From Xanthostigma xanthostigma (taxonomy: Eukaryota > Arthropoda > Insecta > Raphidioptera > Raphidiidae), in assembly GCA_963575645.1 (NCBI GenBank), contig OY754470.1, positions 45,353,201 to 45,417,200 on the forward strand: 64,000 nt of DNA, written 5' to 3'. The notes below the pieces were generated by a model, which did no database searches, was not told where the DNA came from, and saw nothing but the letters and a program-made list of their open reading frames with translations. Positions 6,593-62,953 of this stretch are shown here, in pieces. How positions within the stretch are numbered: the stretch's first letter is position 1; every line of letters starts with the position of its first letter. Made by a program: the position numbers and the translations under genes.

Positions 6593-7116
6593 CAGTTCTA
6601 TCTATAATTGTATTTAGTTAAGATTTTCAGCTGTAATATTTCATTTCAATTGCATACAGAAGTAATAATTTCATGAAAAGTGCGAAGTTATTAAAAAAAA
6701 TATTTTATGACATGGAAAAAAATTATTCAATTCTTTTTCTTGAACTACAGTTATAAAAAGTAGTTCAAATTACGGATAAATGTAGATTTCCAGCTCGTTA
6801 GTACACCATCTGGTCGCTAGAGGGAACTAACACAAACAAGGAAATCAGAAACCCGCATAAGTAATACTCATTGACTTATAACATAGACTATGCAGTGAGT
6901 TAAAAACAAAGATATTACAATAGATGACACGACAAAGCAGTGAAAGTGTCTGCAATTAAGAGAGAAAACAGTTCCTTATCTCTGTGGTAACTAATGATGC
7001 AAAACAATGCTCATTTGATTAAACAAATTTCTGGTTTTCTGCAGAGTTCTCTCTTTTAACTGAGGAACTTTCAGGTTATTGCAAGCAAACGCACAAGCGT
7101 ACTCCATGGTTAAAAA
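6593..7116. other. Unannotated AT-rich sequence
   Basis: No element or gene was recognised here. Confidence 0.4.
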
Positions 7117-8116
7117 TTGGTTGTCTGTAAAGTCGGTTTACGGACGATAGTTTTACGTGATAACGTATTCCGTAATACATAACCTAAATTTATATAATAA
7201 TTATAATAATTCGAATCTATGATATTGCATCTTTCGCTTCAAATTTAGGTAAATTTTATTAAGTAGAATAATTAAACACTATAAAAAGTATACTATTATT
7301 ATATAAAAAACAACTATGGCATATATCTCTTTTGCGCATGCGCCGATTTTCCCCAAAAAATTTACAAAAATTTCTAGTAAAAATAGATAGAGTAAAAACC
7401 GTTTTAAAAACTATATTATTATTATATAAAACATCTTTATAAGAGATATATTCTTTTACGCATGCGCCGATGTTCCCCAAAAACAATAGGCCACTTCATA
7501 TTTGCATATCAAACATCCTCCCAAAATTTGGTTTCAATCCGCTTATCCTTGGTGTCGGAATGATAAGAAATGTCAAAAGTGACGTTTGCAACTGTCAAAG
7601 TATTATGTTCTAATAATAATTAGTTATTCCAATACTTAACTTAGAAGGCGTTGCATTTCACAAAATACTAATGTCAAAAAATTGAATTAAACATTAGAAA
7701 TGCAGCCGTTTTCATGTTAAGACAAGACATACGTTCTCTTCTAATTTCCATGTACGGCAAACAAAGACGACCGACCGCGTCGCGCCATGCATTAGACAAC
7801 ATTGCATTTATACAGCTATTTTTCTATATAAATTTGTATAAAAAAACTGTTTTAGGCAAATTCTGTTATACGAAATCTATGTAAAATGTTCTCCTCTTTC
7901 GTTTAAGACTGGTTTCAAACCGATCTGATTTAAATTGAGCGAGAAATTAGCAAAAAGCACGCACAGGGTCAGGCGGAACGTTACGCGTTAGGAACGTTAG
8001 GAACGTTACGCGTTACGAGCGTTAGGAACGTTACACTTTTTTGTGCATGCAGCCGGTGTTTTATCAATTTATAAGATTGGTGATTCATCAATTTATAAGA
8101 CGTTATCACGTCAAAA
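7117..8116 (+). mobile_element. Family D element, full-length copy 1
   Basis: This 1-kb unit begins TTGGTTGTCTGTAAAGTCGG and ends ACGTTATCACGTCAAAA. It recurs almost unchanged at 61982-62953 and as an internally altered form at 27266-27870. Near the left end lies TTTTACGTGATAACGT and at the right end its near-exact complement, so the element has subterminal inverted repeats of about 16 bp, suggesting a non-autonomous DNA transposon. It carries two family-F-like segments on the minus strand (GCGCATGCGCCGATTTTCCC at about 7334 and a similar one at about 7458). Before the right end is a cluster of GTTACG/GTTAGGAAC units. No real coding frame is present. Confidence 0.75.
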
Positions 8117-8317
8117 ATGTTGTGCGAGAGAGGTGAAATGAGGTGACTGTCAATGCCTGTATGTTTCTAAAAGTTTTCTTCGTTTTACTAGCAAGAATAG
8201 TTCGGAGAATATATACGTAGCGTGCATGTCATTGCAGAGTAACTATAATAAAAACGTGTTTTTAAAATTGTTTTTTTATACTATTAATTTCATTTTTAAT
8301 TTTTAGTGTGCTTTATT

Positions 8318-13448: not shown

Positions 13449-14477
13449 AACCTTTTATATCTTTTGAACGGAGTGTCCGACTGAAACGCGGTTTGCGGCA
13501 TCTGACGTGATCTTGGTGAACTTAGACTTCCTGAAAATTTGTAACGATTCGGCCCAAAAAATTTTGAGAAATCTTTAAAAAACAAGTTTCAAAAATTTTT
13601 TAAAATTTGTTTTTGTAAAATATTTTCTAAACTACTAAACCGAATAATTCCAAAATCTAATCAGCTCTTCTCCTTAACAAACTGCGTCGATTTCCGCAAA
13701 CCACATCAAAATCGGTTCATTTGTTCACGAGATACCGTGAACGAAAAAATCGTAAAAAAGTGTTTTTTTAAAATGATTCTTAAAATTGTTATCAGATCGA
13801 TTTTTTTGTAATAAATTACTTTCTTAGGCTAAAAAAACTGCGTCGATCGCCGCAAACCAGATCAAAATTGGTTCATTTGTTCATGAGATAACGTGAACGA
13901 AAAATTAGGAGAAAAGTAATTTTTTATAATTACTCGTAAAATTCTTATCAAATCGATTTTTTTGTAATAATTTACTTTCTTAGGTTAAAAAAACTGCGTC
14001 GATCGCCGCAAACCAGATCAAAATTGGTTCATTTGTTCATGAGATAATGTGAACGAAAAATTAGGAAAAAAGTAATTTTTTATAATTACTTGTAAAATTC
14101 TTATCAAATCGATTTTTTTGTAATAATTTACTTTCTTAGGTTAAAAAAACTGCGTCGATCGACGCAAACCGCTTCAAAATCGGCTCATTTGTTCACGAGA
14201 TATCGTGAACGAAAAATTTGTAAAAAAGTGTTTTTTTTAAATTGCTCGTAAAATTCCTATGAGATCGATTTTTCTGTAATAAATTACTTTTTTAGGATAA
14301 AAAATTGAGTCGACTGCCGCAAATCGCATCAAAGTCGGTTCATTTGTTCATGAGATATAGTGAACGAAAATTTCGTAACATAGTGTTTTTTTTTTGAGCT
14401 CGAAGAGCTAAAAAATAAACTTCTTGCTATATTTTATATATTTTTGAGCGTTTTGAACTCGAAAATAGCGGGAAGTT
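13227..14477. mobile_element. 1.25-kb element with AACTTCCCGCT ends and a 156-bp tandem array
   Basis: The outer ends are AACTTCCCGCT (13227) and AGCGGGAAGTT (ending 14477), an 11-bp perfect terminal inverted repeat. The left end also forms a strong hairpin, because TCGGGAAGTT recurs at about 13269-13278 across an A/T tract. A GT-rich microsatellite spans 13386-13445. From about 13600 to 14440 there are five head-to-tail units with landmarks TGCGTCGATNNCCGCAAA at 13683, 13839, 13995, 14151 and, degenerate, 14306: period 156, 156, 156 and 155 bp. No coding frame is present. The transposon class is unknown. Confidence 0.75.
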
Positions 14478-15911: not shown

Positions 15912-18393
15912 TTTTATTTCTTTTGTTTTCAATACAATATAAATCAGTACAATATAAATCTTGAAATATTTTCCCCCTCACTAGGTAATCATATTACCTG
16001 TCTCGAGGGGAAACAATTTTTTCGTACCGACGTGGCTTGCAAGCTGATTTTTATTTAAATGCTATTTTAATCAATTAATCATTATGTGTGTGAGTTTGTG
16101 TTGTGTGTGGGGGTGTGTTTGTGTGTGTGTGTGTGTGAGAGAGAGAATTGTGTATGTGTACGTGTAAATAGGTATTATGTGTGATACCAAGGCACTAATT
16201 ATCCTAATCTGTTATATACTTAAGTAATTGTTGTCGGTCTGTCTGTATAATCCATATTTTCAACTGTTTTTTAAATTTCTGTTTCGGTAATGTACGTATG
16301 TCTTGTGGAAGTTTATTGTAAATTTTGGGAGCCAGGTATGTGTAATGTTTGTGTCCAAGTTCCGTCTTTGTTTTTGGTATCTGTAACAGTCCTGTCAATT
16401 TATTTCTCGTCGTTTTGTCATGCGTTATTTGGTGATGTCTGTTTGTTTGTCTGTTAAAATGCGTCATTATCGATTGAATAAAAAGTTGTCTAATGTCTAG
16501 CACGTTTGCGTCTTTGTAAAGGTTGTCCGTCGAATATCTTTTATTTTTATGTAACATCACTTTTAATATGTATCTTTGAGTCACTTCGATTTTATTCATA
16601 AATGTATCATTCATACCGCCCCAAACAATGATACCGTATGTTATAATTGATTGCGCTAATGCAAAATAAATTTGCTTCAAGTACGGAATAGAAAAAACTG
16701 TCCTAAGTCTGTAGAATATATATATTAGTTTTCTTAATTTTTTATTTAGTCCGTCGGTATGTTTGTCCCATTTCATGTGGCAGTCAATGTCTATTCCTAG
16801 GTATTTGATACTAGTTACTTTTTCTAGTGGTACACAATTACAATGTCTAGAGGTCTGGTCACAGTCATGTATCGTCAAGTCTCCATGGTTTGGTTGAGTT
16901 GCTTGCGTCAATGTGAAGGTCATATATTTAGTTTTTGATGGATTCAATGTTAAGAGGTTTTTGTCAAGTAGTAACTTCAGTCTTTTCAGTTCTTTTTGTG
17001 CTGTAACAAAAACTTCTGTCCAGTTGGTGTCCGTAAATAGTATGACTGTATCGTCTGCGTATGATATTATTGTCCCATTAATGTTTGATTTGTCAATTAT
17101 GTCATTTATGTATATCATGAATAATGTTGGTCCTAAAGTTGTTCCTTGTGGTATTCCAAATTTAACTGTCAATTCGTCACTGTCAATATTATTTATTCTC
17201 GTTATTTGTGTTCTGTCTGTCAAGTAGCTTTTGAACCAGTCTAGTGCAATCCCTCTAATTCCTAGGTTATGTAGCTTAGTCAACAGTATTTTGTGCGAAA
17301 CAGTATCAAAAGCTTTTGCTAGATCTAAGAACACACCTAAGCATCGAGCGTCGCCACTATCTAGAGTATTCACTACTGTTTCTGTCAAATTTAGTATTGC
17401 GTCTTGTGTGCTAAGTCCTTTTCTAAATCCGTATTGTTTTGGTGAAATCAGTCCTTTCTGGTCTAAGTATTGTGTTAGTCTTGAATTTATTATTTTTTCT
17501 AGTATTTTTGAAAGTGTGTTAATTAATGAAATAGGTCGATAGTTCGTTAAGATGTCAAAGTCACTTGATTTATGCACTGGTCTTATTGTAGCTCGTTTGA
17601 AATGTTTAGGAAATTGTCCGTTTAGTATGCTTAAATTAAAAATATGCACCAGAGGATCCAAAATAAGATCTTTTACTTCTACTAAAATTTTTGTATTTAT
17701 GCCATCTTCTCCTGGAGCGCTATTTTTATTTAGGGATTTTATAGTGTCATTTACGTCTTGTGAAGTGATCGGATTGTTATAAAAACTATGAGTAGGAGTG
17801 GAATAGTCAGTCATGTCTTGAGCAAGATGATGTTCAGTTTCGTTTAAAGTCGCTAGTATTTTGTTTGCTAAATTTTGTCCAACGCTTGTGAAATGTTTAT
17901 TAAATTCATTTGCCATTTTTTGTCCGTCCGTCATTAAGCTAATAGTGGTATCATTTACTTGTATCTGAGTAGTCTCAAATTGTTTTTTGGTCTTTCGACT
18001 TGTTATCTCGTTAGCAATTTTCCACACGGCACTTGTATTTGTTCCGTCAGATAAAAGTTTGTCTTTATAATATTTAGTTTTCGTTTTTTTTATTAAACTG
18101 TTACATTTATTACGGTATTTAATATAGTAACGTAAAAGCTGTTCATTGTTTGGGTGTTTTTTGGTCATAATATGCAGTCTGTCTCGTCTACGTATTGACA
18201 TTATTAGTCCGGTTGTTATCCAAGGCTTAATTTTTTTTACCGATTTACTTGCTAGTACAATACTTGTACTATTTTCAATTAGCTGTGATAGTCTCGTAAC
18301 AAAAAGGTCGGTTGCATGGTCTGTGTTCCCGCTTTGTAATATTTGATGCCAATTTTCTTCACTAACTGTGTGTTTTAGTCTATCGTAATTAAT
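15874..18393 (-). mobile_element. 5'-truncated CR1/Jockey-like LINE
   Basis: A minus-strand retrotransposon: the 3' end is the (TTA)n tail (15874-15909 on the plus strand). It is preceded by a 3' untranslated region of about 290 bp with a CA-rich microsatellite (16083-16146) and a CTCGAGACAGGTAATATGAT/AGGTAATCATATTACCTG palindromic patch near 15982-16010. The reverse-transcriptase frame then runs to about 18393, where homologous-looking sequence ends. No apurinic-endonuclease or ORF1 sequence is present, so the insertion is 5'-truncated, as usual for target-primed integration. Both borders are ATTAATA-like, but low complexity prevents a firm target-site call. Confidence 0.88.
16204..18393 (-). 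CDS. Non-LTR retrotransposon reverse transcriptase (endonuclease missing)
   Basis: RNA-dependent DNA polymerase of a LINE, which would copy its own RNA at nicked chromosomal DNA. The first Met is at 18201 (665 codons), but the frame is open for 64 more codons to a TAA at 18394-18396. That extra part (WHQILQSGNTDHATDLF..., KSVKKIKPWITTGLI) looks like the endonuclease-RT linker. Numbering from Met18201: the RT fingers start near 200 (RATIRPVHK), then YRPISLINTLSKILEKII (221-238), the first catalytic aspartate in FLDLAKAFD (291-299), GIPQGTTLGP (349-358) and YADD (381-384). The thumb/C-terminal region has YLGIDID...WDKH and ends APKIYNKLPQDIR...KFKKQLKIWI. No internal stop or frameshift is seen, so the insertion is comparatively young. 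The upstream endonuclease is gone, so it cannot act alone. Confidence 0.9.
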   Translation of the reverse strand: MNYDRLKHTVSEENWHQILQSGNTDHATDLFVTRLSQLIENSTSIVLASKSVKKIKPWITTGLIMSIRRRDRLHIMTKKHPNNEQLLRYYIKYRNKCNSLIKKTKTKYYKDKLLSDGTNTSAVWKIANEITSRKTKKQFETTQIQVNDTTISLMTDGQKMANEFNKHFTSVGQNLANKILATLNETEHHLAQDMTDYSTPTHSFYNNPITSQDVNDTIKSLNKNSAPGEDGINTKILVEVKDLILDPLVHIFNLSILNGQFPKHFKRATIRPVHKSSDFDILTNYRPISLINTLSKILEKIINSRLTQYLDQKGLISPKQYGFRKGLSTQDAILNLTETVVNTLDSGDARCLGVFLDLAKAFDTVSHKILLTKLHNLGIRGIALDWFKSYLTDRTQITRINNIDSDELTVKFGIPQGTTLGPTLFMIYINDIIDKSNINGTIISYADDTVILFTDTNWTEVFVTAQKELKRLKLLLDKNLLTLNPSKTKYMTFTLTQATQPNHGDLTIHDCDQTSRHCNCVPLEKVTSIKYLGIDIDCHMKWDKHTDGLNKKLRKLIYIFYRLRTVFSIPYLKQIYFALAQSIITYGIIVWGGMNDTFMNKIEVTQRYILKVMLHKNKRYSTDNLYKDANVLDIRQLFIQSIMTHFNRQTNRHHQITHDKTTRNKLTGLLQIPKTKTELGHKHYTYLAPKIYNKLPQDIRTLPKQKFKKQLKIWIIQTDRQQLLKYITD

Positions 18394-26646: not shown

Positions 26647-27265
26647 TCCTTAATATTTTTAGTGCGGTGTAGGACGTATAATATTGTATAATGGAGATAT
26701 CACATAACTGGCCCCTGAAGCATTATCGATCACAGACCGCCGGTGCGTTCAGTCGGTGGCCTCGGGGAAGGCGTTTAAACATTAAACCGATTATCAGCAG
26801 ATCACTCATCTGCACACACGTCAAGTCTCTTGGCTGGTCTCTTCCCTGTGTCACGTTACTTCATTACTCTTGCCAACTATAATATAATAGGCACTTCAGT
26901 GTTTCAAGACTGTTTCCTGGGTACTTAAGAACTTCTAGTCGCAGTGGTGAGTGGAGTACCGACAAAATAGTGTACAGTCAAACCTGAGTGAGTGAAAACT
27001 GGGTAAGCGAGAAAACTCTTTAAGGGGTGAGATGCGTGAAAAACGGAGTATTTTTAATATATTTTTTTTTTCATAATAATTAAGTTTATTTTATAAAATT
27101 GATTATACAGAGTTTTTATGTCATGTTTGACTTGACTTCCACAAAGTAAAAAAAAGTAAATTTTAATTAAATAGATAGATAGATGGATAGATACCTATAT
27201 TTACACAATACATACATATGTGACGTCAAATTTACACATTAAAATTCATAATTAAAAAAAAAAAA
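26647..27265. other. Unannotated sequence
   Basis: A short (GATA)-type microsatellite (ATAGATAGATAGATGGATAG) lies at about 27172-27191. No gene was recognised. Confidence 0.4.
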
Positions 27266-27870
27266 TTGGTTGTCTGTAAAGTCGGTTTACGGACGATAGT
27301 TTTACGTGATAACGTATTCCGTAATACATAACCTAAATTTATATAATAATTATAATAATTCGAATCTATGATATTGCATCTTTCGCTTCAAATTTAGGTT
27401 AATTTTATTTATTTAAATTACTCACCATATAATATAATTGTTTTTTTTAACTTTCTTTCTTTCGTATTTATTTTAAGTCTCAAAGATTAGCTGTCATAAT
27501 ATTTATAAAACAATTGTTTCACTGTTTATAATATAAAATTCCAAAACCTACTTACAATATTTAAGTATTTTCATACGTCAAAAAATTGATTTTTATAATG
27601 ATAAAATTTGTAAGAAAACGATTTTTTCGAGAGATGAGACCTAGCTAAAACGATTTTTTGCCCCCCAAAATCCCTTTTCAGTAAATTTCATCCAAATCGT
27701 TAGGGCCGTTTTCGAGAAAAGCACGCACAGGGTCAGGCGAAACGTTACGCGTTACGAACGTTAGGAACGTTACGTTAGGAACGTTACACTTTTTCGTGCA
27801 TGCAGCCGGTGTTTTATCAATTTATAAGATTGGTGATTCATCAATTTATAAGACGTTATCACGTCAAAAA
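27266..27870 (+). mobile_element. Family D element with a different interior
   Basis: It shares the first about 150 bp (TTGGTTGTCTGTAAAGTCGG to TTCAAATTTAGGT) and the last about 155 bp (GCACGCACAGGGTCAGGCGA to ATCACGTCAAAAA) with 7117-8116 and 61982-62953. The middle 300 bp is unrelated to theirs and carries CATCCAAATCGTTAGGGCCG. The sequence just outside, AAAATTCAT on the left (about 27241) and AAATTCAT on the right, hints at a duplicated target but is not flush with the left end. It may show the ancestral interior. Confidence 0.7.
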
Positions 27871-27911
27871 TTCATGTACAGTGTAAAAACAGTTTTTGGT
27901 TAGAAGGCTCC

Positions 27912-42556: not shown

Positions 42557-43287
42557 ACCGGGTGAGGCAAAAGTCCCGGAACGGTTGAATATCTCGCATA
42601 CTACGCATCATATCAAAAAAAAAAAAAATACGTGTCAAATATTTTTCGCAAAACTATTTTTTGATACCACACATGACTCCCCACCCCCCACCCAGTTGGT
42701 GGGGGGAGGGGCAACTTTAAAATTTTAAATAGGAACCCCTATTTTTTATTGCAGATTCGGATTCTACGGGAAAAATTACATACAATTGATGTAATTTTTC
42801 CCGTGGGTTTTAGGGGTTGAAAAATATTTTTGGGCCCGAAAATACCGAAAAATTTCTCCGAATCGTTTCAAAATTGAAATTTAACCCTTTAGTAATGATT
42901 AAAATGTGCTAGCAAAATTTTATTAAAATCGGCCCGACAGGACCAGACTTAAAAATTTTATGAAAACGTTAGTTTGTAGATATGGATTTATTTAGTGAAG
43001 GGTGAATTTAATTTGTTGTATTGATAGTAATATTAAAATTAAAAAAAAATTACATACAATTGATGTAATTTTTCCCGTAGAATCCGAATCTGCAATAAAA
43101 AATAGGGGTTCCTATTTAAAGTTTTAAAGTTGCCCCTCCCCCCACCAACTGGGTGGGGGGTGGGGAGTCATATGTGGTATCAAAAAATAGTTTTGCGAAA
43201 AATATTTGACACGTATTTTTTTTTTTTTTGATATGATGCGTAGTATGCGAGATATTCAACCGTTCCGGGACTTTTGCCTCGCCTGGT
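42557..43287. mobile_element. Foldback element with about 246-bp arms
   Basis: The left arm (42557-42802) begins ACCGGGTGAGGCAAAAGTCC, and the right arm (43042-43287) ends with its near complement. The arms agree almost throughout, including a CCCCACCCAGTTGGTGGGG motif and an inner palindrome TTACATACAATTGATGTAA. The 240-bp centre is family G sequence in plus orientation. No transposase is present. The flanks are A/T-rich (CAAT|CATA and GGTTATAT) and I cannot fix the target site. It is a likely foldback-type DNA transposon. Confidence 0.8.
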
Positions 43288-43643
43288 TATATCAGTCATG
43301 ATAGAATAAATTTCAAAAATAACTATGTCATGAAATATACATTTTCAAAGTTATAAATAGAGAAAAAACTAGAACTTTTCCCTGTATAGGTACTAGTAAT
43401 GAGAAACCAATTAAATTAAACACAAAGATCCCGATTTAGTGAGTTTTACATAAAAACTCAATAAGTAAATGATAACCGCGCTTACACTTTTCGCTTGTGT
43501 TCTTATGAGGGTAGGGATACAAGTCTGTAGGTGGGAGCGTTTCTCTCTTGCACTGTCCAATAGAAGAAAGAAAAAACAATGATGTTGCTAATTTTTTTGT
43601 CCAAGTTGAAATGTATCATCTCTGAATACATCTAACGAATGTA
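43288..43643. other. Unannotated sequence
   Basis: No feature was recognised. Confidence 0.4.
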
Positions 43644-44164
43644 CTGTGCGATCGGCGAAAGAAGACCGGTGGGGAAAGGGCAAGAAGTCGTTGATGTGTT
43701 CCCAAATTATCGGAATTCATAGGCGGCGCATAGCAAGGCATGCAAACAATGTATAGCTTTAAATTTTAAGGCATTATTTTGAGCCTCTAACTCGCACATT
43801 TTAATTACATTCGCTATGACCTCCCTAGCGCCACTTCTAACTGTTTTTCCCTTTTTACTTTCCATTTTGATGATATTCAGACAACACCCCTCAACTTAGT
43901 CCGTGAACGCACACCTATGTACTGTCTGGTGTATGATTTTTTTGTACTGTTAGCAAGTGTCGCTGTGTAGTCGTACAGCTATGGCAATAGTACAATTATC
44001 GCGATACCACAATTGCGACACGTTTGGCCGACTGGACTCCCTTATTGCATAGAAGCGGTTCCAGGATCATTACCTTTTACCAATATAAAATGCATGTGCG
44101 CTCTTCTGCAATAAGGTCATAGGACTACATACCATAGACCGGTCTTCTTTTAAAAATCCAACAG
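43644..44164 (-). mobile_element. 521-bp TA-flanked element, copy A
   Basis: It starts CTGTGCGATCGGCGAAAGAA after TA (43642-43643) and ends CCAACAG before TA (44165-44166). Both ends share CTGT and AAAGAAGACCGGT in inverted orientation. A TA duplication with such termini suggests Tc1/mariner (IS630)-type integration. Copy B at 56945-57465 has the same length in the opposite orientation. Both contain the same 52-codon frame. Confidence 0.82.
43707..43865 (-). CDS. 52-codon conserved frame in TA element copy A
   Basis: Met at 43865, TAA at 43707-43709. The product is basic at the start (MESKKGKTVRSGAREVI), then a predicted helix (NVIKMCELEAQNNALKF) and IHCLHALLCAAYEFR. Relative to copy B, I count only two amino-acid changes (Ser/Asn at 3, Ala/Thr at 37), with the start and stop identical. 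The KGK..RS.AREVI..V..MCE.EA pattern resembles the N-terminal helix-turn-helix stretch of some insect transposase-like proteins (inference). It might be the retained first exon or a DNA-binding fragment of an absent transposase. Whether it is translated is unknown. Confidence 0.5.
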   Translation of the reverse strand: MESKKGKTVRSGAREVIANVIKMCELEAQNNALKFKAIHCLHALLCAAYEFR

Positions 44165-44166
44165 TA

Positions 44167-56942: not shown

Positions 56943-56944
56943 TA

Positions 56945-57465
56945 CTGTTGGATTTTTAAAAGAAGACCGGTCTATGGAATGTAGTTCTATGACCTTATTG
57001 CAGAAGAGCGCACATGTATTTTATATTAGTAAAAGGTAATGATCCTGGAACCGCTTCTATGCAATAAGGGAGTCCAGTCGACCAAACGTGTCGCAATTGT
57101 CGTATCGCGATAATTGTACTATTGCCATAGCTGTACGACTACACAGCGACACTTGCTAACAGTACAAAAAAATCATACACCAGACAGTACATAGGTGTGC
57201 GTTCACGGACTAAGTTGAGGGGTGTTGTCTGAATATCATCAAAATGGAAAATAAAAAGGGAAAAACAGTTAGAAGTGGCGCTAGGGAGGTCATAGCGAAT
57301 GTAATTAAAATGTGCGAGTTAGAGGCTCAAAATAATGCCTTAAAATTTAAAACTATACATTGTTTGCATGCCTTGCTATGCGCCGCCTATGAATTCCGAT
57401 AATTTGGGAACACATCAACGACTTCTTGCCCTTTCCCCACCGGTCTTCTTTCGCCGATCGCACAG
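56945..57465 (+). mobile_element. 521-bp TA-flanked element, copy B
   Basis: It starts CTGTTGGATTTTTAAAAGAA after TA (56943-56944) and ends TTCTTTCGCCGATCGCACAG before TA (57466-57467). It is inverted relative to copy A at 43644-44164 and the same length. The two copies differ at scattered positions only. Both retain the 52-codon frame. TA duplication and inverted AAAGAAGACCGGT ends suggest Tc1/mariner-type movement. Confidence 0.82.
57244..57402 (+). CDS. 52-codon conserved frame in TA element copy B
   Basis: ATG at 57244, TAA at 57400-57402. Product MENKKGKTVRSGAREVI...KMCELEAQNNALKF...HALLCAAYEFR, two residues different from copy A. It is Lys/Arg-rich at the N-terminus, with an amphipathic-looking helix at about 15-35 and a Cys/His/Ala segment at 40-48 (CLHALLCAAYE). 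No catalytic DDE residues could fit in this length. Context says transposon-borne; the helix-turn-helix interpretation is inference. Confidence 0.5.
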   Translation: MENKKGKTVRSGAREVIANVIKMCELEAQNNALKFKTIHCLHALLCAAYEFR

Positions 57466-57467
57466 TA

Positions 57468-61475: not shown

Positions 61476-61981
61476 ATTTATTTCGGTCATTGACCGAATT
61501 CGGGTATAGACCGTAACGTATATAACATTTCATATGTGCATTTATTGGCTATTTTCCTGTTAATCTTTACCATCATAGTTTACGATATACCTGTTATTTT
61601 TTCGAAATTTATCTTTAATTTTTAACCCGATTAAAAAAAAATTAATTGATTTCGTCGTCCCTAGTGTAAATCCCGTGCAGGAAGACATAGTAGGTGTTAG
61701 AAAAAGGAATATAATATGTTCGAGAGTTAATATCTAGAGCATACGAGTTCGTATCTCTTAAAGCCGGTTTATGTATTATTTCAAACAAACAAATAAGAAG
61801 TAAAGAAGCAAAGCACGTTCTCCACAGCAGACGCTGTACACTACATTCTACATTCCTGCACTTCAGACAATCTTTATGCCGTCTGGATGCTAATCGGGCA
61901 ATCCAATCACGAACTATATTCCTCCTTATTCTTTTTTAAAAATTCGGCAATATTTTAAACCTTACAAAAATAGAAAAAAAA
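61476..61981. other. Unannotated sequence
   Basis: No feature was recognised before the family D copy. Confidence 0.4.
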
Positions 61982-62953
61982 TTGGTTGTCTGTAAAGTCG
62001 GTTTACGGACGATAGTTTTACGTGATAACGTATTCCGTAATACATAACCTAAATTTATATAATAATTATAATAATTCGAATCTATGATATTGCATCTTTC
62101 GCTTCAAATTTAGGTAAATTTTATTAAGTAGAAAAATAAAACACTATAAAAAGTACACTATTATTATATAAAAAACAACTATGGCATGTATCTCTTTTGC
62201 GCATGCGCCGATTTTCCCCAAAAAATTTACAAAAATTTCTAGTAAAAATAGATAGAGTAAAAACCGTTTTAAAAACTATATTATTATTATATAAAACATC
62301 ATTATAAGAGATATATTCTTTTACGCATGCGCCGATGTTCCCCAAAAACAATAGGCCACTTCATATTTGCATATCAAACATCCTCCCAAAATTTGGTTTC
62401 AATCCGCTTATCCTTGGTGTCGGAATGATAAGAAATGTCAAAAGTGACGTTTGCAACTGTCAAAGTATTATGTTCTAATAATAATTAGTTATTCCAATAG
62501 TTAACTTAGAAGGCGTTGCATTTCACAAAATACTAATGTCAAAAAATTGAATTAAATATTAGAAATGCAGCCGTTTTCATGTTAAGACAAGACATACGTT
62601 ATTTTCTAATTTCCATGTACGGCAAACAAAGACGACCGACCGCGTCGCGTCATGCATTAGACAACATTGCATGTATACAGCTATTTTTCTATATAAATTT
62701 GTATAAAAAAAACTGTTTAGGCAAATTCTGTTATACGAAATCTATGTAAAATGTTCTCCTCTTTCGTTTAAGACTGGTTTCAAACCGATCTGATTTAAAT
62801 TGAGCGAGAAATTAGCAAAAAGCACGCACAGGGTCAGGCGGAACGTTACGCGTTAGGAACGTTACGTTACACTTTTTCGTGCATGCAGTCGGTGTTTTAT
62901 CAATTTATAAGATTGGTGATTCATCAATTTATAAGACGTTATCACGTCAAAAA
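61982..62953 (+). mobile_element. Family D element, full-length copy 2
   Basis: It is nearly identical to 7117-8116 over its whole length, including both family-F-like inserts and the ATGATAAGAAATGTCAAAAG block. It differs by scattered substitutions, small indels and a shorter GTTACG/GTTAGGAAC cluster before the right end. It begins TTGGTTGTCTGTAAAGTCGG and ends ACGTTATCACGTCAAAA. The minus-strand frame 62124-62351 is not a gene, although the same frame exists in copy 1 at 7259-7486. Confidence 0.78.

Follow-up and report, generated by a model that had tools for sequence, protein, structure and literature searches.

The window analysed here, a repeat-rich stretch of 64,000 nucleotides (C7:45353201-45417200) from a 623-Mb genome of 28 contigs, contains two copies of one short mobile element. 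Copy A, 521 bp long, lies at 56945..57465 on the plus strand, and copy B, of the same length and in opposite orientation, at 43644..44164 on the minus strand; the two differ by substitutions at eight of 521 sites and by no indels. Each is bordered by TA target duplications, read directly in the flanks at 56943..56944 (left) and 57466..57467 (right) for A, and at 44165..44166 and 43642..43643 beside the left and right ends, respectively, of B. An earlier note on this DNA had described two TA-flanked copies of equal length and opposite orientation, a description borne out at both loci. It had also reported inverted ends, which are indeed present, but the motif proposed for them, AAAGAAGACCGGT, is the inner half of the repeat and not the tip of the element. 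The complete terminal inverted repeats, CTGTTGGATTTTTAAAAGAAGACCGGT / CTGTGCGATCGGCGAAAGAAGACCGGT, are 27 bp long and imperfect, start with CTGT and are identical at 20 of 27 positions (29 bp and 76% complementary when the TA is included). Comparison of the ends locates the left repeat at 56945..56971 (plus strand) in A and at 44138..44164 (minus strand) in B, and the right repeat of B at 43644..43670 (plus strand); the right repeat of A, found at 57439..57465 (minus strand), recurs throughout the genome, as described below. Near the left end of A, an internal imperfect inverted repeat of 18 bp (56993-57010 / 57052-57069, spanning 56993..57069 on the plus strand) corresponds to a subterminal hairpin. 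The element strand as a whole folds more stably than every one of 100 shuffled versions (z -4.1), which is to be expected because its ends are inverted. No complete transposase is present in the element, the longest ATG-to-stop frame of copy A having 52 codons and no significant Pfam match. An Rfam search of the window gave no match at the gathering threshold or at E<=0.1.

PIF/Harbinger elements duplicate the 3-bp target TWA and piggyBac elements the 4-bp target TTAA. A MITE of either type was considered and rejected, since only TA is common to both sides when the flanks of both window copies are read directly.

The copies in the window belong to a large family. The right end of A occurs 788 times in the genome within three mismatches (414 forward and 374 reverse), while the same search with this sequence written backwards, as a control, found no occurrence. 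A search with the 521-bp element returned 921 candidates, and the 40 that were scored, copy A itself and 39 others, are all full length or nearly so and 99-100% identical to A. The suggestion that the element had been copied recently is thus well founded. For closer comparison, 41 copies were aligned (two from the window, seven found by DNA similarity, 27 through the peptide discussed below and five through a 30-bp pattern), drawn from 43 fetched genome loci after dropping L001, which is window copy A, and leaving out the partial copies L011, L030 and L034. TA is found on both sides in 41/41 of these full-length copies, and 40 of them are 506-533 bp long, the 41st (L043) spanning 513 bp. The copies fall into at least two sequence groups, which divide them about 12 to 29 at most of 14 sites, and 13 of the 41 have an insertion of 10 bp, a structure which points to few source copies and recent bursts. 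With its TA duplication, inverted ends, short and homogeneous length and high copy number, the family is an abundant, young and recently amplified one of Tc1/mariner-type MITEs, and that A and B form a repeat far beyond chance follows from its hundreds of copies.

The three partial copies show where the element has been broken. In L030 (C1:21412677-21415832) and L034 (C8:22605911-22609066), similarity to the MITE begins only at element position 150 or 152, with unrelated sequence upstream, and in both the right end is then followed by TA. These two breaks nearly coincide and lie beside a palindrome-like stretch, possibly a hairpin site at which deletions recur. In L011 (C7:49677312-49680467), a short stretch following element position 461 is deleted, so that the inner half of the right-end repeat is gone and the outer part left.

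As far as excerpts of the respective reports go, the family resembles the Dromar MITEs of Drosophila (PMC4161770), those forming clusters in Rhodnius (PMC4678618) and the Bari MITEs (PMC4877112), which likewise combine a TA duplication and inverted ends with a length of a few hundred base pairs and amplification in bursts. Those MITEs derive from mariner/Tc1 elements by internal deletion; for the present family, a search with an exact 30-bp core found no longer parent. The family is also more numerous, with about 800 copies as against the '100 to more than 300' given in the consulted part of one report for the largest Drosophila lineages (PMC4161770).

Both window copies carry an open reading frame of 52 codons plus a stop, at 57244..57402 on the plus strand in A and at 43707..43865 on the minus strand in B. 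The two peptides differ at residues 3 (N/S) and 37 (T/A), just the two amino-acid changes that had been reported, and that of B matches the consensus for the 41 aligned copies. The length of this frame is ordinary and not beyond chance: of 2000 dinucleotide shuffles of the element, 744 contain an ATG-to-stop frame this long or longer, as do 179 of 635 window tiles (521 bp each, taken every 100 bp). That such a frame exists at all would be accounted for by how common frames of 52 codons are by chance in such DNA.

Whether selection maintains the frame is a separate question, on which the A/B pair already bears. The comparison of frame with remainder, which the earlier note had proposed for all copies, gives no support to a kept frame in this pair, where the two diverge equally, with differences at 2/159 frame sites and 6/362 other sites (p=1); both differences in the frame are non-synonymous. 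The fairest small sample consists of the nine copies chosen regardless of their peptide, namely the two in the window and the seven found by DNA similarity, these seven being young, as they were picked for their likeness to copy A. Four of the nine encode the consensus peptide and five a changed one (S3N together with A37T in one, V16L in three and C46Y in one), their private changes amount to three non-synonymous, no synonymous and three non-coding, and stops and frameshifts, which were looked for in all nine, were not seen. V16L is found in four of the 41 aligned copies, including the pattern-found L039; one of the changed peptides has thus been passed on by copying. In the 27 copies selected through their peptide, 12 private changes are synonymous, for ~29.7 such sites per copy, and 62 are non-coding, for 362 sites. 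Synonymous sites have thus not evolved more slowly than non-coding ones, but if anything faster (p=0.012), so that the frame has no protection at the DNA level. In the five pattern-found copies, private changes number nine non-synonymous, two synonymous and 19 non-coding. Five of the nine are demanded by the pattern itself, in which the second base of codon 37 is changed, and the four left once these are set aside are slightly fewer per site than the non-coding changes, although such numbers are tiny. In one of these five, L043, a gap of one base causes a frameshift.

The family at large was approached in two further ways. The second base of codon 37 is changed in the five pattern-found copies, whose 30-bp context is otherwise exact, about 0.8% if, as estimated, ~627 copies keep this context; this is close to the divergence of 0.76% per site estimated from the right end, both figures being rough and the end possibly constrained itself. 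A genome search with the peptide gave 779 candidates, and among the 150 best-scoring, which are the ones scored and which are uninformative on broken frames, a count of rows gives about 130 with the exact peptide of copy B and 20 at 98% identity. On contig C1, 75 copies were taken for a perfect right end, whatever their frame, and matched by position to the peptide search; at least 15 of the 75 have the exact peptide, and a further 12 or more have it at 98% identity. Divergence of the ends alone would leave ~38% of copies without a change at non-synonymous sites, whereas the matches listed for C1 give at least 20%, a lower bound because only 150 of the 779 candidates were scored; several source copies with different peptides would also lower the count. 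The number of exact peptides on C1, being such a bound, shows no clear excess over drift.

The distribution of common variants could seem to speak for conservation, since the 14 sites with variants in at least ten of the 41 copies all lie outside the frame, 13 of them at element positions 95-276 and one at 474. Nevertheless, zero variable synonymous sites in the frame has a chance expectation of ~32%, and the pattern is not counted as selection because 27 of the 41 rows were picked for having the same peptide, a choice that excludes non-synonymous differences from the outset. In the copies compared, in samples which are small and mostly selected by peptide or pattern, nothing indicates purifying selection on the frame.

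Copies A and B are thus very probably non-autonomous, TA-targeting MITE copies of Tc1/mariner type, members of a recently amplified family of ~800 in the genome, and their frame a mere passenger. The amplification would have been recent, its source being a small number of almost identical copies. Because no autonomous relative was found, we infer a mobilising transposase encoded elsewhere that, to judge from the anatomy of the element, would bind the 27-bp ends, excise the element and reinsert it at TA. The 52-codon frame would then be copied with the rest of the element and drift alongside it, and it would be intact in many copies because these are young.

The first 36 residues of the peptide seem similar to those with which insect transposases of one DDE_3-type group begin. 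On the basis of this apparent resemblance, we lean slightly towards reading the first ~36 codons as a remnant of the N-terminus of the parent transposase that an internal deletion has fused to 3' sequence, in which case residues ~37-52 would be 3' sequence read by chance. In published work, internal deletion is described as a common origin of MITEs, which can keep parts of the transposase (PMC4161770, PMC4678618, PMC4877112), the survival of such portions being stated for the Bari MITEs (PMC4877112). In the competing account, which is a real possibility if not the one that we would choose, the frame is pure chance and owes nothing to a transposase, the interior of the MITE being of unrelated origin and only its ends coming from the partner element. 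The frequency of frames this long in shuffles fits this account, as does the lack of a family match, since the peptide has no significant match in Pfam and none in a PDB sequence search at E<=10. A longer parent was also sought genome-wide as the exact 30-bp core followed by a different base, and the five places found are all mutated MITE copies. However, this search is blind to a diverged parent or a junction inside the core, and pure chance would leave the apparent resemblance of the start of the peptide to transposases as a coincidence.

Other searches with the peptide and the ends gave little. Pfam matches to GILT and Atx10 lie below the cut-offs of these families and were taken as chance, as were nine tblastn matches (E above 0.8) obtained besides the MITE copies in the window and the 43 genome loci. 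Relatives of the peptide were looked for in viral contigs, where 40 stretches fit the pattern and none was confirmed, and in phages, with no match at E<=1. The end pattern hit five stretches in viral contigs, again taken as chance, and neither MITE end sequence, as typed, occurs in the literature searched.

It is also conceivable, though unlikely, that a conserved stretch is kept as DNA and not as protein, for subterminal recognition by the transposase or the need for a hairpin. The folding of the element, expected as it is with inverted ends, and the fact that the 14 common variable sites avoid positions 1-94 and 277-473 are compatible with this possibility. On the other hand, private mutations do occur in the frame (the 12 synonymous ones in 27 copies and several amino-acid changes), and selection by peptide, which affects most of the sample, would by itself remove differences there.

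As an alternative to recent copying, the earlier note had raised a use for the peptide, a small basic one perhaps representing a helix-turn-helix fragment of a transposase, as a DNA-binding helper or a repressor. It would be a truncated DNA-binding domain of a transposase that occupies the ends and limits transposition, in the manner of KP and other repressor proteins from deleted P elements of Drosophila, whose target duplication is 8 bp as against TA here. The composition of the peptide is indeed basic (9 K/R vs 5 D/E) and about 130 of the 150 scored matches, out of 779 candidates, have it in identical form. A single-sequence model, too weak to call a fold (mean pLDDT 68), predicts helices at residues 13-28 and 33-50, but a helix-turn-helix is a three-helix unit. 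There is precedent in small non-autonomous P elements that yield repressor proteins, according to part of one report (PMC7776569), and the portions consulted of two papers on KP and other truncated repressors (PMC7776569, PMC12393704) describe a comparable situation, a short non-autonomous element with a short frame that, here too, is possibly a truncated transposase. Nevertheless, KP has 207 residues and binds DNA, as indicated by the titles of papers cited there, while the present peptide has only 52, no recognised domain, a length that chance would give and, among the copies compared, no trace of purifying selection. Judged by titles and the openings of abstracts, the literature searched for related MITEs and for MITE-made peptides or repressors reports no repressor peptide beyond P elements. 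Equal divergence of frame and remainder in A and B, changed peptides in five of the nine copies chosen blindly to it, the copying on of V16L and synonymous sites that are not slowed leave the proposed use unsupported, and we regard it as very improbable. Selection for such a trait would presumably act weakly on any one of ~800 copies, a further point against it. Its most elaborate version, in which hundreds of MITE copies make a 52-residue micro-protein that binds their common ends and holds back or assists its own transposase, forming a small, dispersed system that regulates itself, is more improbable still.

The element is therefore best seen as a Tc1/mariner-type MITE of an ordinary kind, abundant and young, whose frame is a passenger, and its family as one more recently active MITE family. 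It calls for caution, as a short frame common to young repeats is expected without selection, and its ~800 copies could give a powerful test of neutral against selected evolution once they are compared blind to the frame.

The window also contains other repeats and a long open frame. A large inverted repeat with arms of about 243 bp and 97.5% identity (42557-42799 / 43045-43287) ends 357 bp before copy B. A second repeat family of about 1 kb is represented at 7112-8117 and 61977-62953 with 95.6% identity, and by a shorter third copy at 27258-27871 that matches both ends and is perhaps internally deleted. An open frame of 729 residues on the minus strand (16204-18393) has a reverse transcriptase domain (PF00078, E 2e-39) and is probably part of a retrotransposon, which we take to be of LINE type. 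Finally, 13673-14393 is a tandem array whose unit recurs about every 156 bp, its overlapping direct repeats being 84-89% identical.
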